NCBI GenBank assembly: GCA_902571795.1
Contig: CACGDL010000008.1
Coordinates: 1 to 41,454 of the forward strand
Length of the DNA: 41,454 bases
Direction: 5' to 3'
Source of the DNA: an uncultured Prochlorococcus sp.
GTDB lineage: Bacteria; Cyanobacteriota; Cyanobacteriia; PCC-6307; Cyanobiaceae
Shown here: positions 12,114-38,659 of the stretch, piece after piece
Layout: each line of letters begins with the position of its first letter
Position numbering within the stretch: the stretch's first letter is position 1
Program-made: the position numbers and the translations under genes
The notes under the pieces: model-generated
Told to the model about the DNA's origin: nothing
Databases searched by the model: none
Seen by the model: only the letters and a program-made list of their open reading frames with translations

Positions 12114-13376
12114 CTAATTAACTGAAAATTCTAATCTTTCTACAACAAAATCAAAAGCATTCTCTAAATCTTTTGTATTGAATCTTGAATAGCTTTTCAA
12201 ATGAGTTTCAAGATCATGTCCCATTGCATCAGCTATCTGTTTTGGTGATCTATAAGTTCCATTTTTGTTGATCCTATTATGGGCAACATAGGCGTATCTA
12301 TGCCTGAAAGAATAAGGTGTGCATTCTTGTCCTTCAATTTCAGCTTCCTTGCAAATAGACAACCAAACATTCTTTGGGCTTCTATCTCTTAACTGTTTTC
12401 CTAATCTATCTGCTCCTCGTCCTTTAGATATTTGAGGAAGAAGTTCTCCAGCAGCAAATCTCTGCTGCAAAGTAAGACACCAATCAAAAGGATTTCCATC
12501 TATATCTAAAACAAATAAAGGAAATAATCTTCTTCCATTTATCTTAGAATTCGATTTCTTATAAGTAGTCCAAAGTTCTGTTTTATTATTTTTTAGAACT
12601 AAATATCTAAGTTCCTCAGGCCTTAATCCATATACGGCACAAAGCTGAGTTGCAAATTGCCATTTTGCTGCATGCTCATTATTTGCGAAGGCATCAACCA
12701 ATCTTCCAATCTGGGAATCTGTTAATGGATAACCCACTCTCTTTTCTGTAGTTACTTCTTCTTCAGCTTTATTAAAAACTGGTGGTCTCCAATATGATGG
12801 AAAGTCTTCTCTCTCAACGCACCAATTTAAAAATCTATTAAAAGCTAATCTCATATGTCTTCGCATGGTTGTCCCTTTAGCCCATCCTCTTTTTTCTAAA
12901 TTTTTACCATGTTGATATTCATTACTGACTTTATCCCATAATCTTTTCCCATTTTGAGGTCTTGCCTTTGATCTCTTTACGTAAAAGAAAATTGCTTTAA
13001 TTACAGGAAGATGCTTCCTTTCCCAGGTATTTTCTTGAATAGTGTGTCTATTAGAATTTCTGTAATTCTCGAGAGCCATATCCCAATCCAGCTCAAATCT
13101 AGAAGATGATTTCTGTGAAATATCAAAAGCAGCCTTTAAAGAAATATTGGATTTATAGTTTTGATAAGTGTCTGCAGCAGTTTCTATAAGTTTCAAAGCC
13201 TCTACCCATTGATCTTCTTGCCATTTGTATGGAAGGTTTATTGATAAAAATCCTGATGCTTTTTTCCCATATAAAACACGAATATTTCCTCTATCAGGTT
13301 GAACAGTCCAACCAGTTCCAACAGAGACTTTAATTGCTCTTCTAAATACTTTTATCCAAGAGTTAGTTTCTGCCAC
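12114..13376 (-). CDS. Tyrosine recombinase (integrase) of a tRNA-Pro-targeting element
   Basis: A 420-residue phage-type integrase. The N-terminal part (about 1-110) should be the arm-binding domain, the middle (110-200) the core-binding SAM-like domain, and the C-terminal part catalytic: Arg252 in GLRPEELRYL, Arg358 in YSFRHRYAY (Tyr instead of His before it), His387 in MGHD and the nucleophile Tyr396 in SYSRF. All essential residues are present. It reads away from core copy 3, with a 7-bp dyad and three TGCAGTC repeats between its start and the tRNA fragment. It is the only intact recombinase in the window and a candidate to mobilise cassettes in trans. Confidence 0.95.
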   Translation of the reverse strand: MAETNSWIKVFRRAIKVSVGTGWTVQPDRGNIRVLYGKKASGFLSINLPYKWQEDQWVEALKLIETAADTYQNYKSNISLKAAFDISQKSSSRFELDWDMALENYRNSNRHTIQENTWERKHLPVIKAIFFYVKRSKARPQNGKRLWDKVSNEYQHGKNLEKRGWAKGTTMRRHMRLAFNRFLNWCVEREDFPSYWRPPVFNKAEEEVTTEKRVGYPLTDSQIGRLVDAFANNEHAAKWQFATQLCAVYGLRPEELRYLVLKNNKTELWTTYKKSNSKINGRRLFPLFVLDIDGNPFDWCLTLQQRFAAGELLPQISKGRGADRLGKQLRDRSPKNVWLSICKEAEIEGQECTPYSFRHRYAYVAHNRINKNGTYRSPKQIADAMGHDLETHLKSYSRFNTKDLENAFDFVVERLEFSVN

Positions 13377-20148: not shown

Positions 20149-20180
20149 TGATCTGGAGAGTTAATTATATTAAATTCTTC

Positions 20181-21626: not shown

Positions 21627-21629
21627 TAT

Positions 21630-22319: not shown

Positions 22320-22362
22320 TTGATTATTTGTTTTTAGAATAAAAATTATGCATATTAAAAAA

Positions 22363-23307: not shown

Positions 23308-23385
23308 TCTTAAACTTTACTTTGAATGAATTTATTATTTAAAAAATATATCATTACTTTAGAAATTGACATTGAATTAATAATT

Positions 23386-24606: not shown

Positions 24607-24680
24607 GGACTTAGAAATTTAATTCATTCTATTATTCCACATATTTAATATTTTTAAATATCTAATGAATTTGTAGTTAT

Positions 24681-25058: not shown

Positions 25059-25076
25059 TTATATTAGGTTTAGAAA

Positions 25077-26048: not shown

Positions 26049-26065
26049 TTAATTGGTTATAACTT

Positions 26066-27133: not shown

Positions 27134-27166
27134 TAACTAAATAATCACCAGTTCCTATTAAATATA

Positions 27167-28090
27167 TTATGCAGCTAAATTTCTATATCTAGTAAATTGA
27201 GGTTCAAAAAGTAATTTAACTGTTCCTACTGGACCATTTCGGTGTTTGGTGACTATTAATTCTGCTATGCCACGTTCTTCAGTTTCTGGATGATAAAACT
27301 CATCTCTATAAAGCATAATTACCACATCTGCATGTGCTTCTAATCCTTGAGTCTCTCTTAAATCACATAACATGGGACGGCAGTTTTCTCTCTTTTCAAT
27401 ATCTCTAGAAAGTTGAGACATAAGCACTACAGGCACATCTAATGCTTTTGCCATCTCTTTAAGGTCAAGGACAATTTTAGATAACTCTTTATCTCTAGAC
27501 TCTTTATTGGGACCATCCATCATTTGTATATAGTCGACTACAACTAGTCCAAGTTCTCCTAGTCCATGCTTTTCTTTAATCTTCTTACATTTTGAAAGCA
27601 TCTCCTTAACTTTAATAGAACCTTTATCACAAATAAAAATGGGAACTTCTGCGAGGTCCTCTATCTCTTTACCAATCAAACCCCATTCATCTTGTTGAAG
27701 TCTTCCAGTTCTCAATCTTCCTGACTCAATACCAAGTTCCATAGAGAGAAATCTATAACTCATTTGTTCTCTACTTTGTTCCAAGCTGAAATAGCAAACA
27801 GGTAATTTATTTCTCTTAGAGACATTTTGTGCAAGATTCATTGCAAAAGAAGTTTTACCCATTGAAGGTCTACCAGCAATAACAACTAATGAACCCCTTT
27901 GCAGACCTTGTGTCATTGCATCTAAGTCATAAAAACTTACGGGTACACCTGTTGAGTATTTTCCTAATGAACTTTGTTCTATGTTTTCAAAAGTTTGTGG
28001 CATTATGCTCGCTAAGTTTTTCATATCCTCAGAATCTTTTCTTAAACGAATACCTTTAAGTTTTAATTGCTTTACCTTTTTGTCTCTCAT
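27167..28090 (-). CDS. DnaB-type RecA-fold helicase domain, stand-alone
   Basis: This 307-residue protein corresponds to the C-terminal ATPase domain of replicative helicase DnaB: Walker A GRPSMGKTS (Lys79), CYFSLEQSREQM, Walker B LVVVDYIQMM, MSQLSRDIEKR and DLRETQGLEAHADVVI. The N-terminal collar domain of DnaB is missing and replaced by about 40 basic residues. Such stand-alone versions are found in phages and satellites, for replication or helicase hijacking, so it suggests replication capacity for the ancestral E5 element. ATPase motifs are intact. Confidence 0.9.
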   Translation of the reverse strand: MRDKKVKQLKLKGIRLRKDSEDMKNLASIMPQTFENIEQSSLGKYSTGVPVSFYDLDAMTQGLQRGSLVVIAGRPSMGKTSFAMNLAQNVSKRNKLPVCYFSLEQSREQMSYRFLSMELGIESGRLRTGRLQQDEWGLIGKEIEDLAEVPIFICDKGSIKVKEMLSKCKKIKEKHGLGELGLVVVDYIQMMDGPNKESRDKELSKIVLDLKEMAKALDVPVVLMSQLSRDIEKRENCRPMLCDLRETQGLEAHADVVIMLYRDEFYHPETEERGIAELIVTKHRNGPVGTVKLLFEPQFTRYRNLAA

Positions 28091-28167
28091 ATTAAATTTT
28101 TGTTGGAAACTTATATAAGCAAACCTAGAAAAGAATGCAAATTAAGTTTCTCGAAGTTAACTATTAA

Positions 28168-28584
28168 TCAAATATCATTCTTAAAAAAAGCAAGCATAAT
28201 TCTTTCTGTAACCTGACTAATATTGTCCAGTTTCCACTCTTCTTTGAGTGATCGAAGTTTTTTAATTACTCTATTGTGCATTTGTAATCTAATCTCGTTG
28301 TAAGCATCTTCATTTTCCTGCCTTAATCTTTCTTGGGCACAAATATCTCTCATTCTCTTCATACCTGTTGCTAAGTTTTTCTCAATTGTTTCTTTTGACT
28401 CATTTAATATTTCTGCTATTTCATCAGTTGTATGGAGAATCTCAAAAGGTTCCCCTAAACCTAAACTTAATTGAAGAACTGCTCTTTCTAATTGAGGAAA
28501 AGATTCTAGTTGCTTTATAAGGAATCCTGTAGAATCAATTTCTGGTTCTTTATTCTTGTTTATAGGAACTACTTTTTCTTCCAA
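28168..28584 (-). CDS. Sigma-70 region 4-like DNA-binding protein
   Basis: A 138-residue protein. Residues about 28-78 read like sigma region 4: FPQLERAVLQLSLGLGEPFEIL, then a helix-turn-helix TTDEIAEILNESKETIEKNL and a basic MKRMRDI. No region 2 is present. The C-terminal 60 residues are helical and charged. It could be a transcription regulator that contacts the core promoter complex, or an appropriator of phage type; both are inferred. It is divergent from no neighbour; all genes here are on the minus strand. Confidence 0.6.
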   Translation of the reverse strand: MEEKVVPINKNKEPEIDSTGFLIKQLESFPQLERAVLQLSLGLGEPFEILHTTDEIAEILNESKETIEKNLATGMKRMRDICAQERLRQENEDAYNEIRLQMHNRVIKKLRSLKEEWKLDNISQVTERIMLAFFKNDI

Positions 28585-28658
28585 AAAATTTATATTGGTG
28601 AGGACTTTAAATATGACATTTCATATTTTCAATACAAAAACTTTTAAAGAAACTTAAT

Positions 28659-29096
28659 TTAAATTTCTCTCCATTCATTGTTATCCCATATATAGTTCTT
28701 TGTTTTTTGCTCTAAGTCACTTATCCATAAAGGTCCTAATTCTAGAGTAGAGGGGTTTATTTTGAACAAAAATTGTTTCTGCCAGGAAACCTGTAGATCA
28801 ATAATTTTCATATTCATTTTTTTTTCTTGGAGACATATATGATTTATGTAATCAAATAAATTTGTATATTCAACAAACTCTCCAAATTGAGGAGTGAAGT
28901 TAAAAGTTTCACTAAGATTTTTAATACCCTTACCTACATGTACTTCCCATCTAATTTGAACAATAGCACCTTTATTTTTATTAAATATCAACTCTTTCTG
29001 TTTAGTATTCAATATTGAACAAGCATAATATCTAACTCCATTTTCCTCACCATCTGGACTTATATGATATTCAATATTGCGAAAATCTTTTGCCAT
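28659..29096 (-). CDS. Hypothetical 145-residue protein
   Basis: A soluble, beta-rich-looking protein with EYHISPDGEENGVRYYACSI and GAIVQIRWEVHVGKGI blocks and many Trp, Tyr and Phe. It lies 3 bp after the TPR gene at 29100-29525, and both are on the same strand, so they are surely co-transcribed. The family is not recognised. Confidence 0.65.
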   Translation of the reverse strand: MAKDFRNIEYHISPDGEENGVRYYACSILNTKQKELIFNKNKGAIVQIRWEVHVGKGIKNLSETFNFTPQFGEFVEYTNLFDYINHICLQEKKMNMKIIDLQVSWQKQFLFKINPSTLELGPLWISDLEQKTKNYIWDNNEWREI

Positions 29097-29099
29097 AAA

Positions 29100-29525
29100 T
29101 TAAAAAATATTTTTTAGTTTTTCTGCTTTTCTATCATCCTCATCAGCGCCTTCATTATCACCTGATTTACGCTTGCTTTCTGCACGATAATTATATAAAT
29201 ATGCTTTATTAGGATATATTTCTATTGCCTTTGTGTAATCATCAATTGCTCCTTGATAATCTCCTAATTCACTCTTTGCATCTCCACGCAATCTATAAGC
29301 AAATACACTATTAGGTTCAATTTCTATTGCCTTTGTATAATCTTCAATCGCATCTTCATAGTTTTCTGTTCCTTTAAAAGTCCCGCGACTTATAAAAAAT
29401 CGGGCATCATGAGGGTCAATTTCTATTGCCTCATTTAAATAAATAATTGCATTATTAATATTACCTTTTTTACACTCTTCCTTTACAAGTTTCATGAGTT
29501 CAGAAATAGTTTTTGGTTCATTCAT
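29100..29525 (-). CDS. Cytoplasmic TPR protein
   Basis: This 141-residue protein has no signal peptide and about three TPRs: GNINNAIIYLNEAIEIDPHD, NYEDAIEDYTKAIEIEPNSV, DYQGAIDDYTKAIEIYPNKA. It ends with an acidic EGADEDDRKAEK segment. It is likely an adaptor for the 145-residue protein encoded 3 bp downstream. Unlike the other TPR proteins of this cassette, it would remain inside the cell. Confidence 0.85.
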   Translation of the reverse strand: MNEPKTISELMKLVKEECKKGNINNAIIYLNEAIEIDPHDARFFISRGTFKGTENYEDAIEDYTKAIEIEPNSVFAYRLRGDAKSELGDYQGAIDDYTKAIEIYPNKAYLYNYRAESKRKSGDNEGADEDDRKAEKLKNIF

Positions 29526-29572
29526 AAGTCAAGGATATATGGAATTTCTTACAAAATAATTTTAAATATCAT

Positions 29573-29594
29573 TCTAGAACGATTGTCAATCAAT
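29573..29594 (+). repeat. TTAGAWCGAYTGTCAA motif, copy 3 (variant)
   Basis: CTAGAACGATTGTCAATCAAT, 30 bp beyond the stop of the integrase remnant, the same placement as copy 2 after the intact integrase. The CAATCAAT extension is shared with copy 1. Confidence 0.45.
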
Positions 29595-29624
29595 ACACTT
29601 CGATTCTCTATTCAAAGTATGTGT

Positions 29625-29885
29625 TCATGTTATTTCCGACAAGTCAGATGCCCTATCTAGATCCTTGGTCTGGAATCTTGCATAACTTTTTAGATTTGTG
29701 TTTTGATCATGGCCCATTAAATCGGCAATTTGTTTTACTGTTCTCATAGTTCCATCTTGTTTTGTTTTGGTGTGAGCGACGTACGCATATCTATGGCGAA
29801 AACTATAAGGAGTGCATTCTAGACCTTCTGCTTTTGCTTCCTCGCAAAGAGACTTCCATACGTTCTTAATGCTTTTCTTTCTCAA
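29625..29885 (-). pseudogene. Integrase C-terminal remnant
   Basis: 86 residues corresponding to residues about 333-418 of the integrase at 12114-13376: ECTPYSFRHRYAYVAH, then QIADLMGHD and LKSYARF with the nucleophile Tyr. The first catalytic Arg and all DNA-binding domains are lost, so it cannot act as recombinase on its own. There is no ATG, but TTG 29885 is preceded by AAGGAG at good spacing, so the fragment may still be translated. The frame is continuous with the gene upstream except for one TAA. Confidence 0.85.
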
Positions 29886-29894
29886 GTATTCTCC

Positions 29895-30113
29895 TTATTC
29901 TGCTTCTTCTTTAACTTCACTTGCCTTTAAGTCTCCCACTTGTACTTCCACTTCTTTTACTTCAACTACTTTTACCTTTTGCTCTTCCGTTTTAACTGCA
30001 ACTACTTTTGATGCTATGGATTCAAACTTTCCTTTAATAAAATTTACTATGAAAATTAATATTGGAACATGGGCTAGACCACCCATTATCACTTTAGTTT
30101 CTGAATAATACAT
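29895..30113 (-). CDS. 72-residue membrane-anchored acidic protein
   Basis: A short N-terminal part with one hydrophobic stretch (ILIFIVNFI), then a tail built of Val, Lys and Glu with repeat-like EVKEVEVQV and SEVKEEAE. It stops at TAA, in the same frame as the integrase remnant which begins 9 bp later. It could be an independent small gene that landed here or part of a former fusion. Not recognised. Confidence 0.5.
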   Translation of the reverse strand: MYYSETKVIMGGLAHVPILIFIVNFIKGKFESIASKVVAVKTEEQKVKVVEVKEVEVQVGDLKASEVKEEAE

Positions 30114-30357
30114 TTGTAAGTTAATGAAAACTTAAATATTTAAGCATAAATTTAATTTCTAAATTTATTTTTATTAAGCCAATAAATAATTAGTAATCAT
30201 TGCTTGATATATAGTTCAATAATCTTGCTATCCTTACTACTTCCACTAATAGCTGCTCTCGTTTTACCAACTGCTAACGTCAAATTTTAGGTAAAGTACC
30301 TATTTTTAGTTATTTATTTAAGCGATATTATTTTGAGCAATTAACAGGATTAAAACA

Positions 30358-30471
30358 ATGATGAAACTTGCTATCGTTTTCTTACCAATAATCTTTGCAG
30401 TTATATGGATGCTGTTCATTGGGTTAAGAATAAATAAAAGAGATGAAAATAGAAAATTAATTAATTATTAA
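30358..30471 (+). CDS. 37-residue single-pass membrane protein
   Basis: Begins MMKLAIVFLPIIFAVIWMLF and ends with a basic tail (NKRDENRKLINY). ACAGGATTAAAACA before the ATG includes AGGA. It is directly followed, with no gap, by another small frame starting at TTG (TAATTG), suggesting coupled translation. Family unknown. Confidence 0.55.
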   Translation: MMKLAIVFLPIIFAVIWMLFIGLRINKRDENRKLINY

Positions 30472-30603
30472 TTGAAAAGCTTACTAATCCCACTACAAGA
30501 GCTTTGGCAGAATCATCATGACCCAACTCATGCAGCTTATGGTATTGGTGGTTTAATAGCATTTTTCATAATTTATAATCGATTACTCAATAAATATCAG
30601 TAA
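30472..30603 (+). CDS. 43-residue membrane protein, TTG start
   Basis: Residues KSLLIPLQELWQNHHDPTHA then GIGGLIAFFIIYNRLL: an amphipathic start and one membrane helix. It starts with TTG directly after the stop of the previous gene. The pattern LW.N....A.G.G with one helix faintly recalls the 37-residue family at 6159 and 31893. Confidence 0.45.
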   Translation: MKSLLIPLQELWQNHHDPTHAAYGIGGLIAFFIIYNRLLNKYQ

Positions 30604-30742
30604 CAAGAAACCCCTCCAGAAATTCCAACTACTGAAAGGGTTATTAAATCGACTCGCAACTATATTGAATCAATCTATGTCTTGCAGCAAACGTAGAGTG
30701 TGCTGACGAGGTTTGGCCTCAATTAATTTATAGCAAAAAATT

Positions 30743-30958
30743 TTAAACTCCCGCTACTTTTCGTTCCGCTTGTCGTTTTTTTAGAATTGAATAAGCTTGT
30801 GAAGCCCATTTTCTAGAAATATCAAATTCAGTATCTAACTTCTCTTTGAGTAATTTACCAATTTTAAATACTTCCACGAAGCCTAGATAAATTATTATTA
30901 GCACCTTTATTATGTTTACCGCACCCGCTGCTATCTTTTCGATTCTTTGCTCTTCCAT
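30743..30958 (-). CDS. Hypothetical 71-residue protein with one hydrophobic segment
   Basis: Residues 1-35 include a hydrophobic stretch (AGAVNIIKVLIIIYLGFV), then a basic, helical part (KWASQAYSILKKRQAERK). It resembles a small membrane-bound DNA- or protein-binding factor, but no family is recognised. The 138 bp before its 3' end hold no gene that I see. Confidence 0.5.
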   Translation of the reverse strand: MEEQRIEKIAAGAVNIIKVLIIIYLGFVEVFKIGKLLKEKLDTEFDISRKWASQAYSILKKRQAERKVAGV

Positions 30959-31020
30959 TTGAACTTATTAAAGCTCACTAAAATTAACAGAGTTGAGAAT
31001 TTATGCAAATGTTTTTTAAA

Positions 31021-31055
31021 TTAAAAATAACTTCTAAAGATAGAATTCTTCTTCC
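31021..31055 (+). repeat. Direct repeat, left copy, flanking a small gene
   Basis: Sequence TTAAAAATAACTTCTAAAGA then TAGAATTCTTCTTCC. A copy with few changes lies at 31456-31490, just after the stop of the gene between them. Confidence 0.6.
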
Positions 31056-31180
31056 AACCTTTTTCCATAAATGATTGTGTATACAAGCTTTATACACCTC
31101 GATTTTTTATAATTTTCTTGCTTTTTCCTTATTTTTTCGTAAGTATGCGTATATAGGCTTTCACATAGGGGTTGACGATT

Positions 31181-31459
31181 ATGCAAATTCCAGACGAAAT
31201 GTTGAAAGAAATTAGAGAAAGTGGATACGATCAAGAGCTTGTATTTACACAAATAAGAAAGCTATTAGAAAGCGATAAACCAATTAAAGAAAACGATTAT
31301 AATCTAGAGCTTTTAGACAATTACTTATTAGATAAAGATCCACAAGAACTATCTAAAAATGCTTCTGAGATAGTTATGGCAGCAGAGCTTATAGACAATT
31401 ACTTATTAGATAAAAGATTTATGAGAGAGCTTGAAGATGAAGAATATGATGCTGCTTAA
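31181..31459 (+). CDS. 92-residue acidic protein with internal repeat
   Basis: Starts at ATG 31181 with AGGGG 10 bp upstream (the in-frame TTG at 31172 is less well spaced). The protein is very acidic and helical, with the repeated element LLDNYLLDK / LIDNYLLDK (about residues 43-51 and 70-78). The gene is bracketed by 35-bp direct repeats (31021 and 31456). No family recognised; antitoxin-like or protein-binding helical bundles are possible. Confidence 0.6.
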   Translation: MQIPDEMLKEIRESGYDQELVFTQIRKLLESDKPIKENDYNLELLDNYLLDKDPQELSKNASEIVMAAELIDNYLLDKRFMRELEDEEYDAA

Positions 31460-31490
31460 AAATAACTTCTAAATATAGAAGTCCTCTTCC
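31456..31490 (+). repeat. Direct repeat, right copy
   Basis: TTAAAAATAACTTCTAAATA then TAGAAGTCCTCTTCC; matches 31021-31055 with few changes. It overlaps the stop codon of the gene it brackets. Confidence 0.6.
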
Positions 31491-31543
31491 TTAATTATAA
31501 GTTTATGGTATCTTCTAGATTCTTATGGAGCACTTGTTCAATT

Positions 31544-31561
31544 TTAGGGAATATTTAGGGA
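31544..31561. other. Right-end arm-type sites of cassette E5
   Basis: TTAGGGA twice with a 4-bp spacer, 104 bp before core copy 6. Spacing and position match the right ends of the other cassettes. The left end of E5 has ACGGA words (16955, 16965), only partly similar. Confidence 0.55.
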
Positions 31562-31664
31562 AAAATCTATTAAGCATTAGAAAGTCTTATAAGGTTTTAG
31601 AGGGAAAAATGGCATTCAAAATAAGTTGTACCTTCAAATAGCAGTTATAAGTGATTCGAAACTA

Positions 31665-31710
31665 GTGATTTGGGAGCACTAGGTCACAGGTTCGAACCCT
31701 GTCGCCCCGA
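31665..31710 (+). repeat. tRNA-Pro 3' fragment, core copy 6 (mutated)
   Basis: Three substitutions relative to the intact core: GTGATTT for GTGCTTT, GTCACAGG for GTCGCAGG and GAACCCTG for GAATCCTG. It marks the E5/E6 boundary. Confidence 0.88.
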
Positions 31711-31727
31711 CTCTAATAATCCAATTC

Positions 31728-31756
31728 ACAGAAAGGTTTCCCAGTCTGTCTTTTTT
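31728..31756 (+). terminator. Decayed or variant tRNA-Pro terminator
   Basis: ACAGA / TCTGT stem with a 12-nt loop and T-run, in the position of the AGCGAGT hairpin after copies 1, 2 and 8. Confidence 0.5.
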
Positions 31757-31770
31757 ATTGTGTAATTATT

Positions 31771-31801
31771 GACATCACTCTCTTGATGTCAGTTTGATGT
31801 C
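31771..31801. other. Left-end arm-type sites of cassette E6
   Basis: GACATCA (31771), 6 bp, TGATGTC (31784), 4 bp, TGATGTC (31795): the same inverted-plus-direct triple as at 4388-4419, and at the same distance from the core (61 bp). The right end of E6 carries a different word (34799-34816). Confidence 0.6.
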
Positions 31802-31892
31802 ATTTGCGTGTCTTTTCTTAGTTGTTCGTAGATATTCTTAGATTCAAAAATTAATATGACTGGTAAAGAAGTTAATTTCCTATAATTTTTAT

Positions 31893-32006
31893 ATGGAATT
31901 TTTAACTAATCTTTGGAATAATCAACCAAATAAAGTTATTGGTGTAGGTGTAGCTACAGCAGCATTGTTGGGGATTTATATATTTTTATTAGATATAACT
32001 AAGTAA
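31893..32006 (+). CDS. 37-residue single-pass membrane protein, paralogue
   Basis: Residues MEFLTNLWNNQPNKVIGVG, then a hydrophobic helix and LLDITK. It is related to the protein at 6159-6272 in cassette E2: same length, WNNQPN..IGVG and LGIYI shared. It ends 1 bp before the next gene (32008). Function unknown. Confidence 0.65.
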   Translation: MEFLTNLWNNQPNKVIGVGVATAALLGIYIFLLDITK

Positions 32007-32007
32007 A

Positions 32008-32325
32008 ATGTTTCGACTGCTTCCGTTACCGATTTTTATTTGCATTTATCTATTTTCTTGGTGGAGATGTAAAAAAAATATTATCGCAAGTGATAAGCAA
32101 CTAAAACCTTGCATTGATTGGGCATATCTAAAAAATTTACCGCTTCCCAAAAAACCATCTTTTGTCGAGTTTTATATTGTTTATGTTTCTTCTTTTTTTA
32201 AATTCCCTTTAGGGATAATTATTCAACAACTACCTTTCGCAAAGAAAGTAAGATACTACGAAAGAGAGATGAAATTAATATTTGATAAATGGAATTTAGA
32301 AAAAATAAAAAAAATAACTAACTAA
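32008..32325 (+). CDS. Membrane-anchored hypothetical protein
   Basis: A 105-residue protein with an N-terminal membrane helix (LLPLPIFICIYLFSWW), a basic region with WAYLKNLPLPKKPSFVEFY and a second weakly hydrophobic stretch. It is co-transcribed with the 37-residue gene before it. Not recognised. Confidence 0.55.
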   Translation: MFRLLPLPIFICIYLFSWWRCKKNIIASDKQLKPCIDWAYLKNLPLPKKPSFVEFYIVYVSSFFKFPLGIIIQQLPFAKKVRYYEREMKLIFDKWNLEKIKKITN

Positions 32326-32377
32326 ATCAATATTTAATTGCCATTTCCAATGCGGACAAATTGGAGACAAAAGATGC

Positions 32378-32791
32378 TTAATTGAAAGGTGAAGAGTTAT
32401 TAGTAGGAGCTATAAGTAGAATTTCAAAAACTATCCCAGTTAAGGCAATTGGTAAAACCCAAATACCAATAAATCTATGGTCAAAAAATCTTAAATGATC
32501 TTCACCCCTGAAAACACTTCGTAAAGAAGTAAATAGGGTTTCTGGTTGCTTATAAGATGGCCCATTTTTAGAAGGAGAATATGGCTTAACAAAGGAGGAA
32601 GAAGCAGAAAACTTTGCAATTTTTCTTAAAAAATAAATAGGTAAAACCCATATAGCAACGAATCTTCCACCAAGCCACTGTCTCGCATTAGGCAGAGCAT
32701 ACTCTTTGATAGATTTATTCTCTGGCATTCCAGATTCCAAATTCTTATAAATTTTTTCTAATGTAAATTCATTACTTGATTTATTGATCAT
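32378..32791 (-). CDS. Membrane protein with duplicated RF..IWVLPI segment
   Basis: A protein of about 137 residues. I chose ATG 32791 (preceded by CTGGAAATCAA) because a longer frame to 32896 runs through a strong hairpin. It has two hydrophobic segments that begin alike: GGRFVAIWVLPIYFL and DHRFIGIWVLPIALTG, about 65 residues apart, an internal duplication. The rest is polar. The C-terminal segment is longer and more hydrophobic. No known family, but the pattern of Arg before a helix recalls pigment-binding membrane proteins; this is speculation. Confidence 0.55.
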   Translation of the reverse strand: MINKSSNEFTLEKIYKNLESGMPENKSIKEYALPNARQWLGGRFVAIWVLPIYFLRKIAKFSASSSFVKPYSPSKNGPSYKQPETLFTSLRSVFRGEDHLRFFDHRFIGIWVLPIALTGIVFEILLIAPTNNSSPFN

Positions 32792-32831
32792 TTGATTTCC
32801 AGAAAAATTTACTTTAAAGGTGAAATAAATA

Positions 32832-32880
32832 AAAATATTCCTAACTACTAAAATAACTAAAACGTAGCTAGGAATATTTT
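32832..32880. other. Long, nearly perfect hairpin
   Basis: AAAATATTCCTA-A-CTAC pairs with GTAG-C-TAGGAATATTTT, a 16-17 bp stem with one mismatch, loop of 15. It lies just upstream of the gene ending at 32791 on the minus strand. It may be a bidirectional terminator or a leader structure. Confidence 0.5.
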
Positions 32881-33066
32881 CGTTGGCTAGGTTCATAAAG
32901 ACGGAATCTATACCGTTGCAGATTCGCCAAATATCTACATATTCTTTATAAATAAAAAACTCTATTTTAAAAAGTAAATAATATACATAATCATGAATAA
33001 AATTTAATAACTGGATTTATATAGAAAATTAACTTTAATGTTCCTGACTATTAAAAATTATTTAAA

Positions 33067-33148
33067 CCTCATTTTCTAAGATTGCGAAAAAGAAAATGAG
33101 GTCAAAGGGAGGTTCTCATTACGAACCGCTTTATCAAAGCTAGCGGTT
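33067..33148. ncRNA. Candidate structured RNA region
   Basis: Within the gene-poor stretch 32881-33253 there are three stem candidates: CCTCATTTTCT / AGAAAATGAGG (33067-33101, perfect 11 bp), GGTTC / GAACC near 33112-33127, and AACCGCT / AGCGGTT (33124-33148). The last two share GAACC and so exclude each other. It may be a small RNA or a switch; the strand is not known. Confidence 0.35.
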
Positions 33149-33253
33149 AGTAGATTGCCCTAATATCTACTTATATATTTATATAATGAGTTTTAAAATA
33201 CGGGAAGATTAATTTTATACAAATAAGTGTTTAATATTTTATGTAATTATTAC

Positions 33254-33352
33254 CTAGGAAAAACTAATTAATGTACTTACAATAATTATTGAAAGATAAA
33301 AAAATGCATAAAGAGAAACTGCAAAAAACAAATACTGTTCAATTGGAATCAT
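33254..33352 (-). CDS. 32-residue single-helix membrane protein
   Basis: Residues MIPIEQYLFFAVSLYAFFYL, then a hydrophobic run to LISFS. The size and topology are like small photosystem subunits such as PsbM or PsbT, but no signature can be named. It lies with the other small membrane proteins of cassette E6, 35 bp after the gene at 33388-33576 on the same strand. Confidence 0.5.
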   Translation of the reverse strand: MIPIEQYLFFAVSLYAFFYLSIIIVSTLISFS

Positions 33353-33387
33353 GACAGGGTATTAATTTAAGGGTAAGAAAAATTTGA

Positions 33388-33576
33388 TTAATTTTTTGTT
33401 AAAAAGATATTCTCTAAAATATAACTTTGTTCAATTGATTCATTTTTAAGAGAAATATTTTTTGGCAAATTATTATTTGTATAATTAAAAGCACCCCATT
33501 TTTTTAGCCAAAACAAGGTATAAAAAAATACGATTAAAAAAGGTGCTCCAACAATTAAAAATCTAATATCCATCAA
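33388..33576 (-). CDS. Small membrane protein, related to the N-terminus of the PsbF-like protein
   Basis: A 62-residue protein beginning MMDIRFLIVGAPFLIVFFYT and continuing LFWLKKWGAF, with a polar, Asn-rich tail. Its first 30 residues match the start of the neighbour at 33586-33882 (MD.R.L.V.AP......T.FWL..W..F). The start vaguely recalls PsbY. Only 9 bp separate it from the neighbour. It may be a truncated duplicate that lost the PsbF-like part. Confidence 0.6.
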   Translation of the reverse strand: MMDIRFLIVGAPFLIVFFYTLFWLKKWGAFNYTNNNLPKNISLKNESIEQSYILENIFLTKN

Positions 33577-33585
33577 AATTTCCTA

Positions 33586-33882
33586 TTAATAAGATTTAAA
33601 CTGCATTGCCAATATTGCTCCAAGGAAGAAAACGGTTGGAATCCCTAGGGCATTAACTGCTGCGGTTCTTACAGTAAATACTGGATAACCTTCTGCTGGT
33701 CTGCCAGTATCAGGAATTAATGCTGAATCTTCCCATACTTGATAATTTTTAAAAGGAGCTACTCCCCTCTTTGGTAATCCCAATGGTGTTAATCTAAATA
33801 CATCCCACCTACCTAACCAAAAGACTGTAAATATCCATGAGAATATTATTGGTGCAATAACAAGTAAAATCCTGAAATCCAT
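33586..33882 (-). CDS. PsbF-like (cytochrome b559 beta) protein without heme His
   Basis: A 98-residue protein with two membrane helices. The first (residues 4-23, [14 protein letters not shown]) is PsbY-like. A linker follows, and the C-terminal 33 residues ([15 protein letters not shown], then [15 protein letters not shown]) match PsbF very closely. In PsbF the heme-ligating His stands in VH.L; here it is Asn77 (AAVNAL). Heme binding as in cytochrome b559 is therefore unlikely. It could replace or mimic PsbF during photosystem II assembly, or act as inhibitor. The canonical psbEFLJ operon is not in the window. Confidence 0.8.
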
Positions 33883-34102
33883 TTCTAAAAAGTAATGATA
33901 AATTTGATTATTATTTTGTCTTTTTTAGTTAAATAAATGATTTGATCATTAACTTATATTTAAAGAAAAACCTCTAATAACATTGTTTCTAATCATTAGT
34001 AACATCATGAAATGATTAATTGATTTATTTAAAGTATATTTTTTTGGATTGCGATATTTAGATATTTTTTTTGATGTAGATTTTAGGTAATTAAAAAAAA
34101 AT

Positions 34103-34471
34103 ATGGAAACCTTTAAATTCTTACTTTTTGGTTTTGCAGGCGTTAGTCTAGTTTTTTGGGTAGCAATAATAGCTTTGTGGCATGCATACATGTTTCCAAG
34201 ATTCTTCAATGAAGATAAAGGCTTAAATTCTGTTATCAATCAAGAAATAAAAGTTTCTACAGATCCAATCTTAGGCAGTTTGGTTAACAGCAATAATTTC
34301 AGAAATAGAGATAAATATTCAATGAAAAGTTTTGTTATTGCAGACTTTTCATCTGAGAGTAATAATTTCAAACTGAATAAATTCTACACAACAGTAATGA
34401 TAGGAGTTGCTTTTGCTAGTTTTATTTTTCTCACTTATGGATTAAGCAGTTCAATAACAACGGTAAGTTAA
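34103..34471 (+). CDS. Two-helix membrane protein, unknown
   Basis: A 122-residue protein: an N-terminal helix (FLLFGFAGVSLVFWVAIIAL) followed by WHAYMFPRFF, a polar loop of about 55 residues, and a second helix (TVMIGVAFASFIFLTYGLS). It is directly followed by a 27-residue membrane peptide gene (TAA then ATG). Not recognised; context suggests a thylakoid location. Confidence 0.6.
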   Translation: METFKFLLFGFAGVSLVFWVAIIALWHAYMFPRFFNEDKGLNSVINQEIKVSTDPILGSLVNSNNFRNRDKYSMKSFVIADFSSESNNFKLNKFYTTVMIGVAFASFIFLTYGLSSSITTVS

Positions 34472-34555
34472 ATGGAATCTATATATGTAATTGTTTTTAT
34501 TACTTGCTTTGTTTATTTAATTTTTGACTCATTCAAAAATATAAATATTAAATAG
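34472..34555 (+). CDS. 27-residue membrane peptide
   Basis: MESIYVIVFITCFVYLIF, then DSFKNINIK: one helix and a short basic tail. Its ATG touches the stop of the gene before it. The size is like PsaM/PetN-type subunits; no family is recognised. Confidence 0.45.
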   Translation: MESIYVIVFITCFVYLIFDSFKNINIK

Positions 34556-34559
34556 ACTG

Positions 34560-34721
34560 CTAATGTTTTTTGCCAGCTAATAAAATTTTTCTTCTTATAT
34601 AAAAGAATACTACTGTAGTAATTATCATTGCAGGTGGATGAAATGATATTGAATTTAGATATTCGAAGTAATCAAATGATTCCAAAATTTTTGCTCGTAA
34701 TTCCCCAAAACTATATTCCAT
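34560..34721 (-). CDS. 53-residue membrane protein
   Basis: Begins MEYSFGELRAKILESFDYFE, then SISFHPPAMIITTVVFFYIR and a basic end. The N-terminal part is amphipathic and one membrane helix follows. It is convergent with the previous gene, 4 bp apart. Not recognised. Confidence 0.5.
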   Translation of the reverse strand: MEYSFGELRAKILESFDYFEYLNSISFHPPAMIITTVVFFYIRRKILLAGKKH

Positions 34722-34798
34722 CTCTCAAATTTTTATTGATTTAAATAGATCAATATCTTGTATAAAATGCTAGTCAAATTTTTCTTAACTAATATTTT

Positions 34799-34816
34799 GC
34801 GTACAAATTAAGGACA
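34799..34816. other. Right-end arm-type sites of cassette E6
   Basis: GCGTACA (34799), 4 bp, AAGGACA (34810), 94 bp before core copy 7. The words and the following 90 bp resemble those at 5621-5730 (GTGGACA type), and not the TGATGTC word of the left end of E6. Confidence 0.5.
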
Positions 34817-34910
34817 AATATTACTTTATTTGTCACGACAAACTTTACAGAATCATGCAAATAATTAGATATAACTTGAAATCCTAGTGCTAAACTATGG
34901 CTTTTATTAA

Positions 34911-34956
34911 GTGCTTTGGGAGCACTAGGTCGCAGGTTCGAATCCTGTCGCCCTGA
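34911..34956 (+). repeat. tRNA-Pro 3' fragment, core copy 7 (one change)
   Basis: Intact except for CGCCCTGA instead of CGCCCCGA at the 3' acceptor strand. It has no terminator hairpin after it. It marks the E6/E7 boundary. Confidence 0.9.
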
Positions 34957-34985
34957 GTGACTTCTCAAAATTTTTAAAAACGTTT

Positions 34986-35014
34986 CGGGCGAGGAATTGG
35001 CGAGGATTTGTATA
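34986..35014. other. Left-end arm-type sites of the SDH cassette E7
   Basis: CGGGCGA (34986-34992), 4 bp, TTGGCGA (34997-35003), 4 bp, TTGTATA (35008-35014). The right end of the cassette has CGGGCGA, 4 bp, CGGGAAA, 4 bp, TTGTATA (38465-38493). The region to 35150 holds no gene. Confidence 0.6.
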
Positions 35015-35150
35015 ACTTTTAAGGGTATATAAACAGTTTTTAAGATGAATATGCATCAATAAGGCAATTTTTATATACAGAGATTTTCTCACATTATTAA
35101 ATGTTTGATTAAAATTGGGGAAATAAATTTAAAACATTAATATTTAATTT

Positions 35151-35765
35151 TTGGACCTAGAAATTCTTACACAAAAATTTCAATCTTACAGTGGATTAGT
35201 ATTAGTTTTCTTTATTACAGTTCATCTTGCAGGTGTTATTTTTGCAGGAATTAATCCTGATGCTTTTGAAATATACGCGACAAATTTACATTCGAGTTTA
35301 TTTTTACCTTATTCAGAAATAGTACTTGCCACAACATTCATAATTCATATTTTTCTAACATTAAAAAAGGTTTTAAAAAATAGATCAAGTAATAAAGCAA
35401 TTTTAAAGACTAGGAGAAATGATTACTTAGGAGTACTTGCATCCAAAGTTCAACCTTTTACAGGCGTAATCTTAGCTTCCTTTTTAATAATTCATCTCTT
35501 GCAATTAAGATTCCCTAGACCTGACGATAACTTGGAGTTAATTTCTTTAAAAAATAAATTGGGAGGAGTTCATATTTTAGTTCTTTATTCCTTAGCATCA
35601 ATCTCACTTTTTTTTCATATGGTACAAGGTATTGAATCAGGTCATAGAAGTTTAGGGATCTTAAGTCAAAGTAATTCGTTAAAAATAAGATATATAAGTA
35701 GATTTATATCTATAATTTTTGGACTTTCTTATTTAATAATGACTTTTTACTTAAGATTTAAGTAA
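35151..35765 (+). CDS. sdhC: Succinate dehydrogenase cytochrome b subunit
   Basis: This 204-residue protein has five membrane helices and several conserved His: FITVHLAGVIF, TFIIHIFLTLK, FLIIHLLQLRF and FFHMVQGIESGHRSLG. This is the cytochrome b558 (type B, two-heme) family that anchors SdhAB and passes electrons to quinone. The start is TTG 35151; no ATG fits. It is followed by sdhA after 4 bp, the C-A-B order usual for this family. The whole set is bounded by tRNA-Pro fragments with matching arm sites. Confidence 0.85.
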   Translation: MDLEILTQKFQSYSGLVLVFFITVHLAGVIFAGINPDAFEIYATNLHSSLFLPYSEIVLATTFIIHIFLTLKKVLKNRSSNKAILKTRRNDYLGVLASKVQPFTGVILASFLIIHLLQLRFPRPDDNLELISLKNKLGGVHILVLYSLASISLFFHMVQGIESGHRSLGILSQSNSLKIRYISRFISIIFGLSYLIMTFYLRFK

Positions 35766-35769
35766 TAAA

Positions 35770-37695
35770 ATGAATAACTTCATTAATCCAAATTTGCCAA
35801 CAGGAGAAGTAGAAGGAGCGTGGCAAAAAACAATTAAAAACCTGTCAAATCTTACTATTGAAAATAAAAATAAATTTGAAATTATTATTGTAGGATGCGG
35901 CTTATCAGGCAGTTCTGCTGCAGCTACTCTCGCTGAGGAAGGATTTAAGATTAAACTTCTCACTTATCATGATAGTCCCAGAAGAGCACACTCAGTATCA
36001 GCCCAAGGGGGTATTAATGCGGCAAGATCGATATTAGATGAAAAAAATAAAATTGTTATAGATCAATTATTTCAAGACACCGTACTTGGAGGTGATTTTA
36101 GAGCTAGAGAAGCAAGTTGCCAACGTCTTTCTGAATTAAGTAGTTCCATAATTGATCAGTGTGTCTCACAAGGAGTACCTTTTGCTCGTGAATATGATGG
36201 AACTCTTGCTACCCGAAGATTTGGAGGTGCTGTAGTTAGTCGAACTTTTTACGCCCGAGGTCAAACAGGACAACAGTTACTATATGGAGCTTATCAAGCC
36301 TTATCGCGACAGGTGAATCTTGGAAATATTGAACTTTTTACAAAAAGAGATGTGCTTGATTTGGTAATTGTTAATGATATTGCAAGAGGAGTAATTGCAA
36401 GAAATTTAATTAATGGAAATTTAGAGACTTATAAAGCAAATTGTGTTGTTTTAGCAACTGGAGGATATAGCAACGTCTATTACCTATCAACAAATTCATT
36501 AAAATCGAATGCCACTGCAATTTGGAGGGCCCACAAAAGGGGGGCGAATTTTGCAAATCCCTCTTTCACACAAATACACCCAACATGTATCCCTCCTGAA
36601 GGTATTTATCAAAGCAAATTAACTTTAATGAGCGAAAGTTTAAGGAATGATGGAAGAATTTGGTTACCAAAAAAAATTAATTCAAAAGATGATCCAGAAA
36701 ATATTCCAGAACATGAAAGAGACTATTTTCTGGAAAGGCAATATCCTAAATATGGGAATTTAGTTCCCAGAGATGTCGCCTCTAGAAGAGCAAGAGAGAT
36801 CTGCGAAAAAGGTTTTGGGATTGGCTTTGGTGGTAAAGGAGTATATCTTGATTTACAAGACTCAATAAATAGAGATGGATTAGAGGTAATAAAGGCTAAA
36901 TATGGGAATTTATTAGAGATGTATGAACGAATTGTCGGTGAAGATCCAACAAAAGTACCTATGAAAATTTATCCAGCCCCTCATTACACAATGGGTGGAT
37001 TATGGGTGGATTACAATTTAATGAGTAATATAGATGGCCTTTTCGTTTTAGGAGAAGCTAACTATTCTGTTCATGGCGCTAATCGGCTAGGTGCAAATGC
37101 TTTATTGCAATGCTTGTGTGATGGATACTTTATATCACCAAAAACTATCACCTCTTGGTTAGCAAATAATAAGAGTATGGATAACAGAAGTATTGATGAG
37201 GCTTGTAAAGAGGCTTTAAATTACGTCGATAAAAAAGTTAAAGCTTTACAAAAAATAAAAGGTGAAAAACCTGTTGACTATTTCCATAGAGCTCTAGGGG
37301 AAATAATGATCTCGAAATGCGGTATTACTAGAAATAGAAATGACCTAAAATCTGCCCTTGAAGAAGTAGAAATTTTAAGAAATAATTTTTATTCTAATTT
37401 AAAAATACCTGAAACAAATTCTGGTTTAAATGTAGAGCTTGAGAAAGCTCTGAGGGTAGAAGACTTTTTTGAACTCTCCATACTTATGATTAAAGATGCT
37501 ATTGAAAGGGAGGAATCATGTGGAGCCCATTTCAGAGAAGAATATCAAACTAAGGAAGGAGAAGCAAAGAGGAATGATGAACTTTTCTCCCACATAGCAG
37601 TTTGGAAATTTAATTCTGATAATAATTCTCATATAAGATTTTCTGAAGACCTAAACTTCAAGAAGATTAACTTAAATACTAGAAACTATAAATGA
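35770..37695 (+). CDS. sdhA: Succinate dehydrogenase/fumarate reductase flavoprotein
   Basis: This 641-residue flavoprotein has the FAD-binding VGCGLSGSSAA (residues 41-51), the covalent FAD site His74 in RRAHSVSAQGG, substrate-site THIS-type blocks (FTQIHPTCIPPEG, then RDVASRRARE), HYTMGGLWVDYN and HGANRLGANALLQCL at the C-terminal part. Its length agrees with the Bacteroidetes/epsilon-type SdhA associated with b558 anchors. It oxidises succinate to fumarate. It overlaps sdhB by 4 bp (ATGA). No missing residues seen, so it should be active. Confidence 0.95.
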   Translation: MNNFINPNLPTGEVEGAWQKTIKNLSNLTIENKNKFEIIIVGCGLSGSSAAATLAEEGFKIKLLTYHDSPRRAHSVSAQGGINAARSILDEKNKIVIDQLFQDTVLGGDFRAREASCQRLSELSSSIIDQCVSQGVPFAREYDGTLATRRFGGAVVSRTFYARGQTGQQLLYGAYQALSRQVNLGNIELFTKRDVLDLVIVNDIARGVIARNLINGNLETYKANCVVLATGGYSNVYYLSTNSLKSNATAIWRAHKRGANFANPSFTQIHPTCIPPEGIYQSKLTLMSESLRNDGRIWLPKKINSKDDPENIPEHERDYFLERQYPKYGNLVPRDVASRRAREICEKGFGIGFGGKGVYLDLQDSINRDGLEVIKAKYGNLLEMYERIVGEDPTKVPMKIYPAPHYTMGGLWVDYNLMSNIDGLFVLGEANYSVHGANRLGANALLQCLCDGYFISPKTITSWLANNKSMDNRSIDEACKEALNYVDKKVKALQKIKGEKPVDYFHRALGEIMISKCGITRNRNDLKSALEEVEILRNNFYSNLKIPETNSGLNVELEKALRVEDFFELSILMIKDAIEREESCGAHFREEYQTKEGEAKRNDELFSHIAVWKFNSDNNSHIRFSEDLNFKKINLNTRNYK

Positions 37696-38423
37696 GAGAT
37701 TTTATTTCAATTAAATTTAAAGTTTGGAGGCAAGTTAGTAATGAATCTAACGGGTTATATGAAGAATTTAGTTTAGAAAAAGTATCTATAAAATTATCTT
37801 TACTCGAAGCCTTAGATCAATTGAATGAAGAATTAACAACTAAAAATATTAGGCCTATTACCTTTGATCACGATTGTAGAGAGGGAATATGTGGTAGTTG
37901 TGGTTTTTTAATAAATGGTCAACCTCATGGGCCAAAAAGAGGTACAGCTACTTGTCAGCTTTATATGAGAAATTTTAAAGATAATGCTTTGATAATCCTT
38001 GAACCATGGCGAGCAAAATCATTCCCAATCATCCAAGACTTATCAGTAGATAGAAATGCATTGGATAAATTAATTATTTCGGGTGGCTATTTTTCTACTG
38101 AGACTGGTAATTCACCGGATGCCAATTCAATTCCAATAAGTCCTAAACAAGCATTTTCGTCTTTTGAAACCGCTACGTGTATAGGTTGTGGGGCTTGTGT
38201 TGCAGGATGTAAAAATGCATCATCAAGTCTTTTTGTAGCTGCGAAACTAGCTCATTTAGGACAACTCCCTCAAGGGATTAATGGTAAAAAAGAAAGGTCA
38301 ATAAAAATGCGAAAACAAATGACTATTGAAGGTTTTGGTCAATGTAGTAATAATCTTGAATGCGAGGCTGTTTGCCCCAAAGAAATATCCGCCGATTGGA
38401 TTAGCTGGATGAATAAAAGTTGA
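37692..38423 (+). CDS. sdhB: Succinate dehydrogenase iron-sulfur subunit
   Basis: This 243-residue subunit has the [2Fe-2S] ligands Cys62, Cys67, Cys70 (DCREGICGSCG) and Cys88 (TATCQL), then CIGCGACVAGC and a final CSNNLECEAVCPKE, giving the remaining Cys for the [4Fe-4S] and [3Fe-4S] centres. It links SdhA and SdhC. It is translationally coupled to sdhA. The operon ends 42 bp before the right-end arm sites of the cassette, so the cassette carries nothing else. Confidence 0.95.
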   Translation: MRDFISIKFKVWRQVSNESNGLYEEFSLEKVSIKLSLLEALDQLNEELTTKNIRPITFDHDCREGICGSCGFLINGQPHGPKRGTATCQLYMRNFKDNALIILEPWRAKSFPIIQDLSVDRNALDKLIISGGYFSTETGNSPDANSIPISPKQAFSSFETATCIGCGACVAGCKNASSSLFVAAKLAHLGQLPQGINGKKERSIKMRKQMTIEGFGQCSNNLECEAVCPKEISADWISWMNKS

Positions 38424-38464
38424 GAAATTTCATTGAATTAAATTTATAAAACCTTTTTAAATTT

Positions 38465-38513
38465 CGGGCGACAAACGGGAAAGGAATTGTATATTTACGG
38501 ATAATTTTGTATA
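38465..38513. other. Right-end arm-type sites of the SDH cassette E7
   Basis: CGGGCGA (38465-38471), 4 bp, CGGGAAA (38476-38482), 4 bp, TTGTATA (38487-38493), and again TTGTATA at 38507-38513. It is 131 bp before core copy 8. The layout equals that at 4131-4179 (E0), with another heptamer. Confidence 0.6.
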
Positions 38514-38612
38514 CCTTTGACCTATTTCTGAGACTAATAACTTCTCTGAAATTACGACTCACTTGCCAAAGCCTGACTTGTTTATTTAGATTACCATCTA
38601 AAATTGGAGGGT

Positions 38613-38659
38613 GGGTGCTTTGGGAGCAATAGGCCCAGTTTCGAATCCTGTCGCCCCGA
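38613..38659 (+). repeat. tRNA-Pro 3' fragment, core copy 8 (damaged)
   Basis: Several changes: GCAATAGGCCCAGTTTCG instead of GCACTAGGTCGCAGGTTCG (including a missing base), rest intact. Flanking sequence resembles that of copy 1 for about 150 bp upstream. It marks the E7/E8 boundary. Confidence 0.88.

Follow-up and report, generated by a model that had tools for sequence, protein, structure and literature searches.

The stretch of DNA analysed here (the window, 41,454 nucleotides from an uncultured Prochlorococcus sp.) contains seven good-quality copies of a tRNA-Pro(UGG) fragment, one of which forms the left border of a cassette coding for succinate dehydrogenase (SDH). Between this fragment and a second one the only recognisable genes are sdhC, sdhA and sdhB (35151–38423), all with open reading frames, and GGGCGA repeats, here called arms, are found inside both cassette ends (Table 1). 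The initial annotation had described this arrangement, and the coordinates, the fragment matches and the arm scores agree with it. It had also regarded the cassette as non-autonomous. In fact neither a recombinase nor any other hallmark or satellite gene lies between the two tRNA-Pro fragments, and the non-autonomy of the cassette is therefore supported. An intact tRNA was not found in the window by ARAGORN. Minor reading frames of 59, 55, and 87 aa in the interval overlap the ends or the fragments and form single-member clusters, and a further one of 70 aa lies antisense at the sdhC–sdhA junction. A reading frame of 56 aa at the right end was found again in four other loci but is probably not a gene because it spans the arm and the core. 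When the window was compared by BLASTN with three other genomes (L120, L121, and L122), the homology began at position 34910 in all three and ended at 38680, 38663, and 38712, respectively; the homologous blocks thus start with the left fragment and end slightly past the right fragment.

Table 1. Features of the sdh cassette and of its neighbourhood (positions in the window)
Feature	Position	Strand	Remarks
Tyrosine recombinase (420 aa) of a different cassette in this array	12114..13376	-	Pfam PF00589 26.9 bits (cut-off 27.1); PHROG integrase family
C-terminal remnant of a second tyrosine recombinase	29625..29885	-	PHROG integrase family; no Pfam match
Cassette to the left of sdh, with cytochrome b559 beta (long form) and others	31665..34910	+	Homologue to the right of sdh in G141
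Left tRNA-Pro(UGG) 3' fragment, left core site	34911..34956	+	tRNA positions 29–71, 100% over 43 nt
Left arm, repeat pair (11-bp period)	34987..35014	+	76 nt after core start
sdhC, cytochrome b subunit	35151..35765	+	TTG start; Pfam/NCBIfam; four invariant candidate haem histidines
sdhA, flavoprotein subunit	35770..37695	+	Pfam/NCBIfam; PDB 9lay_A match; dN/dS
sdhB, iron-sulfur subunit	37692..38423	+	Pfam/NCBIfam
Right arm, paired repeat	38466..38493	+	Second half drifted; 149 nt before next core
Right tRNA-Pro(UGG) 3' fragment, decayed, right border	38613..38659	+	tRNA positions 27–74, 91.7% over 48 nt

Pfam and NCBIfam assign the three products to the subunits of succinate dehydrogenase/fumarate reductase. 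Judged by its sequence, SdhA is a succinate dehydrogenase flavoprotein of the B. subtilis type which appears to have kept the residues for FAD and substrate: it scores 848 bits against TIGR01811 (cut-off 541) and 1001 bits against NF005749 (cut-off 866), and its residues 5–641 match PDB 9lay_A. A histidine, an arginine, and a cysteine, which we take to be catalytic residues, are invariant across 23 aligned rows (one genome counted twice). The assignment to the b558 type is weak by score, as SdhC reaches 64.8 bits against TIGR02046 (cytochrome b558) and so remains below the cut-off of 96, whereas the four candidate haem ligands H25, H66, H115, and H156 are invariant, together with H47, in 24 rows (one genome counted twice). 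With dN/dS values of 0.09–0.17 in eight pairs, sdhA is under purifying selection.

The arms of the window (CGGGCGAGGAATTGGCGAGG on the left, CGGGCGACAAACGGGAAAGG on the right) score 28/29 and 27/29 against the motif of the relatives, compared with 99th percentiles of 18 and 16 in shuffled sequences. In each pair the second half has drifted; several relatives keep both halves exact. Arms above the shuffle threshold are present at one or both ends in nine of the 12 loci of the genus, a tenth (G183) being marginal, and in none of 11 loci of other genera; in these 11 loci a tRNA-Pro beside SDH was not found either. The distance between arm and core is regular, amounting on the right to 148–149 nt in 21 of 22 cases across different cargoes, and on the left to 116–123 nt in 28 of 35 cases and 76 nt in six. 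Over 39 cassettes the left and right ends match each other to a degree reached by none of 20,000 permutations, although 18 of the 39 match poorly (score ≤16).

SdhA is encoded by 12 of the 266 genomes of the genus, which we take to be the high-light clade, and by three of the 87 near-complete ones. As most genomes of the genus are incomplete assemblies of the single-cell type, absence from a single genome is weak evidence. In nine of the 12 copies the operon lies next to a tRNA-Pro fragment and bears an arm repeat at one end or at both, and in six of the 12 fragment and arm are present at both ends, with a length of 3704–3762 bp and differing neighbours. The remaining three copies, those of G183, G525, and G075, have no recognisable cassette. 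All nine copies with arms group as a single clade (support 100/97).

Within the tandem arrays in which these cassettes stand, the sdh cassette does not keep a constant position. In the window the b559 cassette lies to the left of sdh, but in G141 its homologue lies to the right, and the position of a pstS block also differs between arrays. An intact tRNA-Pro gene lies immediately before sdh in G099 and one cassette before it in G141. A further tRNA-Pro called by ARAGORN (L124:13924) was not taken as intact, because it combines a fragment with unrelated sequence in its 5' part. Among ten loci examined from searches of 265 genomes each with the neighbouring cassettes (two for G099, eight for the window) there was neither an excised circle nor an exact empty site, and the two neighbours of sdh were never directly joined; the homologues of these neighbours had identities of 88% (G104) and 87% (G106) with the G099 query and of at most 92% with the window query.

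We consider it likely that a 3.7-kb non-autonomous element which inserts at the tRNA-Pro(UGG) gene carries sdhCAB and no other cargo. Alternatively, the repeated tRNA-Pro fragments and the shared cassettes could serve as substrates of ordinary homologous recombination that moves sdh, with no site-specific recombination acting on it now. The repeated 46-nt fragments and the common leaders supply homology for such exchanges, and the left leader of G099 is unlike that of the other copies, its homology to G141 starting at the arm and not at the core. In addition, G143 and G061 have a block of 7.3 kb in common (97.2% identity) that consists of a recombinase cassette and sdh. Because this block holds two cassettes, at least one transfer may have involved a larger unit or homologous recombination. 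Homologous recombination as the explanation is nevertheless unlikely: around sdh, the window and L120, L121, and L122 are homologous only within the cassette, one sdh copy lies immediately after an intact tRNA-Pro gene, and the right arms keep their distance from the core with different cargoes.

It is even less probable that sdhCAB is part of a larger autonomous element with recombinase and cargo, a tycheposon, and only seems separate through an internal tRNA fragment. The cassette adjoining sdh upstream in G143 and G061 does encode a full-length homologue of the recombinase, but the remaining four bounded copies have different left neighbours, and a recombinase was detected in none of the 12 non-sdh cassettes that have both arms of the sdh class in view. 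From the latter result we infer mobilisation in trans. A phmmer search of 29 stretches, made with a single query that a divergent recombinase could escape, gave four recombinase matches, each upstream of a cassette of this arm class. In the window, the recombinase at 12114–13376 is a candidate helper in trans for the sdh cassette. It has general integrase matches only, and the arrays carry tRNA-Pro cores; the end repeats of its own cassette are unlike the sdh arms and do not match each other (rank 30 of 39).

Vertical inheritance would require that sdh is ancestral and was lost almost everywhere. Its presence in the ancestor is plausible because the SdhA proteins of the genus form one group beside those of other Prochlorococcus-like genera, and G183 and G525 have common flanks on both sides. 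However, loss alone does not yield the fourfold-site identities of G061 and G143, which amount to 91.3% for sdhA, but only 53.4% for rpoB and 53.8% for gyrB. Over all pairs the identity of sdhA correlates negatively with that of rpoB (−0.30, 55 pairs) and gyrB (−0.26, 28 pairs). AU tests, whose groups were defined with the trees already in view, reject an rpoB clade for sdhA (p = 2e-5) and two sdh groupings for rpoB (p = 3e-4 and 1e-11). These rejections and the shifting positions in the arrays are left unexplained by vertical inheritance, which we hold to be very improbable overall; it is contradicted for the arm-bearing copies and possible for the three copies without arms. As sdhA strongly conflicts with rpoB and gyrB, lateral transfer of sdh within the genus is well supported, and the history of sdh is lateral in most of the 12 genomes. 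The initial annotation had suggested that transfer of the complex as a cassette underlies its uneven presence, and the low number of genomes with SdhA, the mostly different neighbours, and the AU tests are in agreement with this; instead of one locus in all strains with a host-like tree we found the opposite.

That sdh was recently imported from outside the cyanobacteria (Bacteroidetes or epsilon-type donor) can practically be dismissed: the enzyme type is common to many phyla (∼54–58% identity), but seven SdhA proteins of the genus group together with 18 others from the family (100% SH-aLRT), apart from 19 other bacteria. In the collections searched SdhA is picocyanobacterial, and the foreign donors considered at the outset are not supported. 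Carriage of sdh by phages was likewise rejected, as viral contigs yielded neither a relative of sdh, in a search that reaches close relatives only, nor an exact match to the arms; records near the genome of the window may be left out of both searches. A phage collection contains six records with 28–36% identity, four of them annotated as succinate dehydrogenase or fumarate reductase.

For the insertion of the 3.7-kb element at the tRNA-Pro gene we propose the following course. A tyrosine recombinase from another element would bind the arms, and strand exchange would take place in the anticodon arm (GTGC-TTTGGGA-GCAC). Insertion would restore an intact tRNA-Pro upstream and leave a 3' fragment downstream, and every new insertion would displace the older cassettes from the tRNA, whereupon these could decay. 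The arms would act as a class label that selects the recombinase for each cassette. The cassette may have a single origin, in which such ends came to enclose a resident Prochlorococcus sdhCAB, and its cargo would be a functional SDH that feeds the electrons of succinate into the plastoquinone pool. The copy in the window may no longer be mobile, since its right core and its arms have drifted. More tentatively, and with somewhat more doubt than belief, we suggest that the tRNA-Pro gene of the genus could be a natural integron-like shuffling site for recombinase-less cassettes that have one core in common but carry paired arm codes specific to their class (GGGCGA, GGACAAAT, GCGATTA, GGTCAAAT, and others). 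The code would set which recombinase moves which cassettes, so that metabolic units such as SDH could be traded between lineages as single cassettes.

The closest known kind of element is the tycheposon, reportedly described from Prochlorococcus by Hackl and colleagues (in Cell, in 2023). The part of PMC10872708 that cites tycheposons gives a size of 4–200 kb and seven tRNA genes. Similarly, the sdh cassette lies at a tRNA gene and has partial tRNA copies at its ends, the same array contains tyrosine recombinases, and nutrient-related cargo is found. In contrast, the sdh element lacks a recombinase and other element genes of its own, is at 3.7 kb just below the size range given in that part, and carries a complete respiratory complex; the paired arm repeats are not mentioned in the portion of the tycheposon account compared. 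An entire respiratory complex as the only cargo of a cassette is new here, and the class-specific arm code is apparently a new feature as well. Integrons collect promiscuous cassettes in tandem beside a fixed entry point, with the enzyme encoded elsewhere. The sdh-type cassettes also stand in tandem by a fixed entry point and would be served in trans, but they enter at a tRNA-Pro gene and bear arm pairs. For lambda Int and related tyrosine recombinases, arm-type sites flank the core. The short repeats on both sides of the core at a fixed distance resemble these sites, with the difference that in the sdh arrays the repeats vary by cassette while the core is constant, and that the element does not itself code for the enzyme. 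In the part consulted of a study from 2023 (PMC10119275), the SDH of picocyanobacteria is listed as Pro-eCAG_014 and Syn-eCAG_006, and the SdhABC modules are anti-correlated with high-nutrient low-chlorophyll (low-iron) regions. That part has the identical three-subunit unit and patchy distribution; it gives the distribution and no mobile cassette.

SDH links the TCA pathway with electron flow in respiration and photosynthesis. If the lateral history holds for the named strains, the presence of SDH reflects recent gain or loss of a mobile unit and not fixed ecotype biology. The claim made on SDH in 2016 is thus questioned, not overturned; our genome counts are not split by ecotype. Carboxysome and iron-binding proteins of known strains, considered as a means of assigning the clades, had no match in G061. 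Strains with and without the cassette make the question testable. If the arm code is true, it would provide a sequence rule predicting which island cassettes are still mobile and by which enzyme they are moved. Movement of the sdh cassette between lineages, which the comparison with relatives indicates, would help to explain why few strains have SDH.

The window is an array of cassettes partitioned by tRNA-Pro 3′ halves. We found nine copies of the tRNA-Pro fragment, seven of them good and two poor, all on the plus strand and with matches starting at tRNA positions 25–33, and no intact tRNA in the 41,454 nt of the window, whose source genome consists of 71 contigs with a completeness of 76.8%. 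Two of these fragments border the succinate dehydrogenase (SDH) genes (see table).

Features of the window, with positions and remarks
Feature	Position	Remark
sdhC, sdhA, sdhB	35151–38423	Reading frames open
Left tRNA-Pro(UGG) 3′ fragment	Start 34911	Left border of sdhCAB
Right tRNA-Pro(UGG) 3′ fragment, decayed	38613–38659	Right border of sdhCAB
Genes ahead of the first tRNA-Pro fragment	235–3898	ArsR-type regulator, GAPDH, MFS transporter, phosphate-binding-like protein
Inverse autotransporter beta-domain protein (PF11924) and partner	13721–15739	
Largest cassette, 14.9 kb	16814–31665	DnaB-type helicase, sigma-factor-like protein, recombinase remnant
Yfr13 small RNA	30623–30720	Within the array

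The largest cassette is like a decayed satellite-type element, and the GAPDH and MFS transporter genes at the start of the window suggest what we take to be an arsenate-detoxifying pair. Sequence resembling positions 30602–31011 adjoins 131-aa/DUF3303 genes in two other loci (L328 and L331). By eye, pairs resembling the autotransporter pair are found in cassettes of loci L121 and L241, and one of the fragment-bounded cassettes of the tRNA-Pro array in L124 holds a 360-aa psbA-like gene (photosystem II D1; 10596–11678 of the oriented locus).

Among the 12 sdhCAB loci of the genus, tRNA-Pro fragments adjoin the genes at both sides in six (the window and L120–L124), and the core-to-core lengths of these bounded copies are 3704, 3707, 3717, 3716, 3762, and 3724 bp. 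A fragment is present at the right side only in L125 and at the left side only in L126 and L128, the latter locus being cut off by the contig end; three loci (L127, L129, L159) have no flanking fragment. The BLASTN blocks of the window with L120 (34910–38680), L121 (34910–38663), and L122 (34910–38712) correspond to the fragment-bounded cassette and extend at most ∼50 nt past the right fragment, and further cassettes common to the window and these loci form separate blocks in changed order; for example, sdh has the b559 cassette on its left side in the window and on its right side in L121. The neighbouring genes vary among the loci with the exception of L120 and L122, which have an upstream recombinase cassette in common, and of L127 and L159, which have common flanks. 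In L123 (genome G099) the left core belongs to an intact tRNA-Pro, and in L121 (genome G141) one cassette separates sdh from the intact tRNA-Pro. In genome G199 (L126, 11311–11997 of the oriented locus) the cassette has no right end and a tRNA-Ala, then further genes, come after sdhB, possibly the result of a rearrangement through the array. In G075 (L129, 8344–11631) sdhCAB, with an 81% identical SdhA, lies amid genes resembling polysaccharide synthesis genes by eye, and no tRNA fragment was found around it within the fetched locus.

The ends of the sdh cassette carry a paired repeat with a period of 11 bp, GGGCGAGGAAT-GGGCGAGGAT in the left arm and CGGGCGACAAA-CGGGCGAGGA in the right arm (forms in L120 and L123). 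Arms exceed the shuffle threshold at one end at least in 9 of the 12 genus loci, the marginal G183 excluded, and in none of 11 loci from other genera. The arm motif (≤3 mismatches) was found in 33/265 genus genomes, seven being sdh carriers, and a control pattern gave zero in all rows among the matches listed. Of the further motif loci, 29 stretches from 27 genomes were analysed, and the arm adjoins a tRNA-Pro fragment in all of these except L266. In L266 (position 336, G099) genes for tRNA-Thr and tRNA-Tyr are ∼1.3 kb away from the arm. Spacing is narrow: over sdh and other loci together, the left arm starts 116–123 nt after tRNA position 29 in 28/35 cases and 76 nt after it in 6/35, these six all being sdh cassettes, whereas the last of the 35 is without a fragment; the right arm is 148–149 nt ahead of the next core in 21/22, the remaining one also lacking a fragment. 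By eye, the other cassettes of this arm class carry varied cargo (very long repetitive, HLIP-like small and RNA-binding-like proteins, unknowns). No recombinase was detected inside the 12 of them with both arms in view; the four recombinase matches in the 29 stretches lie upstream, beyond those cassettes or within other stretches.

An arm code seems to be general across cassettes. In 39 cassettes from nine loci, which are not independent because some recur between loci, the left–right end match averages 19.8 within a cassette versus 11.4 between cassettes, the within-cassette value being reached by 0 of 20,000 permutations, and the own right end ranks first for 16/39. The best repeat period is 11 in 44 of 78 ends versus 10.8% of Markov-resampled sequence, and a score ≥11 at a period of 10–12 occurs in 51/78 ends versus 2.1% of resampled sequence and 13/442 control stretches. 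The end repeats of the window's recombinase cassette (GGGGAGCT type, left) are unlike those of sdh. Counting against the code, 18/39 cassettes have a poor end match (score ≤16), as would be expected if old cassettes decay.

SdhA matches (E ≤ 1e-50) occur in 12/266 genus genomes, in 3 of the 87 near-complete ones, in 11/200 genomes of an earlier genus sample, and in 96/300 of a family sample. Comparison with core genes points to horizontal transfer of sdhA. At fourfold sites, identity is higher for sdhA than for rpoB in 37/55 pairs (rpoB being available in 11 of the 12 sdh genomes; correlation −0.30) and than for gyrB in 21/28 pairs (8 of 12 genomes; correlation −0.26). G061 has the most divergent rpoB (48–53% fourfold identity against the ten other rpoB-bearing genomes), and its sdhA is 83–91% identical at fourfold sites to that of G000, G143, G141, G099, G058, and G036; G075 and G525 are near to G000 in rpoB (76 and 73%) and distant in sdhA (54 and 56%). 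In AU tests, with groups chosen after tree inspection, the sdhA data reject the rpoB clade (p 2e-5) and the rpoB data reject two sdh groupings (p 3e-4 and 1e-11). The dN/dS of sdhA is 0.09–0.17 (eight pairs), so purifying selection acts on it.

In the SdhA tree, all nine copies with arms belong to a single clade (100/97), and the three arm-less genus copies fall outside it. In a wider quick tree with SH-aLRT support only, seven genus copies form one group (100) adjoining nine sequences from other small-genome genera; the joint group (100) is separate from 19 other bacteria. The closest relatives beyond the genus, which belong to small-genome genera (genome G248 among them), are 63–67% identical, the remaining family members 57–63%. 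On the simplest reading, a resident Prochlorococcus sdhCAB would have been captured a single time into a cassette that later spread. G183 and G525 have common sequence on each side of sdh, an HLIP-like gene region at the left and an SRAP-like gene at the right (named from sequence), and the left gene has a homologue in the window that matches a high-light-inducible family; this locus may be near the source locus, with ∼6.6 kb of other DNA separating the left stretch from sdh in G525. Alternatively, the G183 locus could be a decayed cassette, since it keeps a marginal left-arm relic (17/29 against a shuffle threshold of 16).

The nearest known kind of element is the tycheposons. The available parts of the tycheposon literature mention neither SDH nor arm repeats, and among the matches listed for Prochlorococcus literature (SDH, sdhA, genomic island, tRNA-Pro), titles and abstract openings describe no sdh on a mobile cassette.

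According to PMC5111396, MED4 is without SDH, and enzymes replacing 2-oxoglutarate dehydrogenase are absent from Prochlorococcus and marine Synechococcus. The SdhA of the cassette is full length, matches the succinate dehydrogenase/fumarate reductase flavoprotein structure 9lay_A over 5–641 and keeps the invariant residues in common with its relatives; eleven cysteines are invariant in SdhB, and four histidines of SdhC, located within or next to hydrophobic stretches, are candidate haem ligands. The complex could reduce fumarate in the dark. Knowledge of the family favours succinate oxidation, and judged by this the enzyme of the cassette would likely oxidize succinate and feed the plastoquinone pool.
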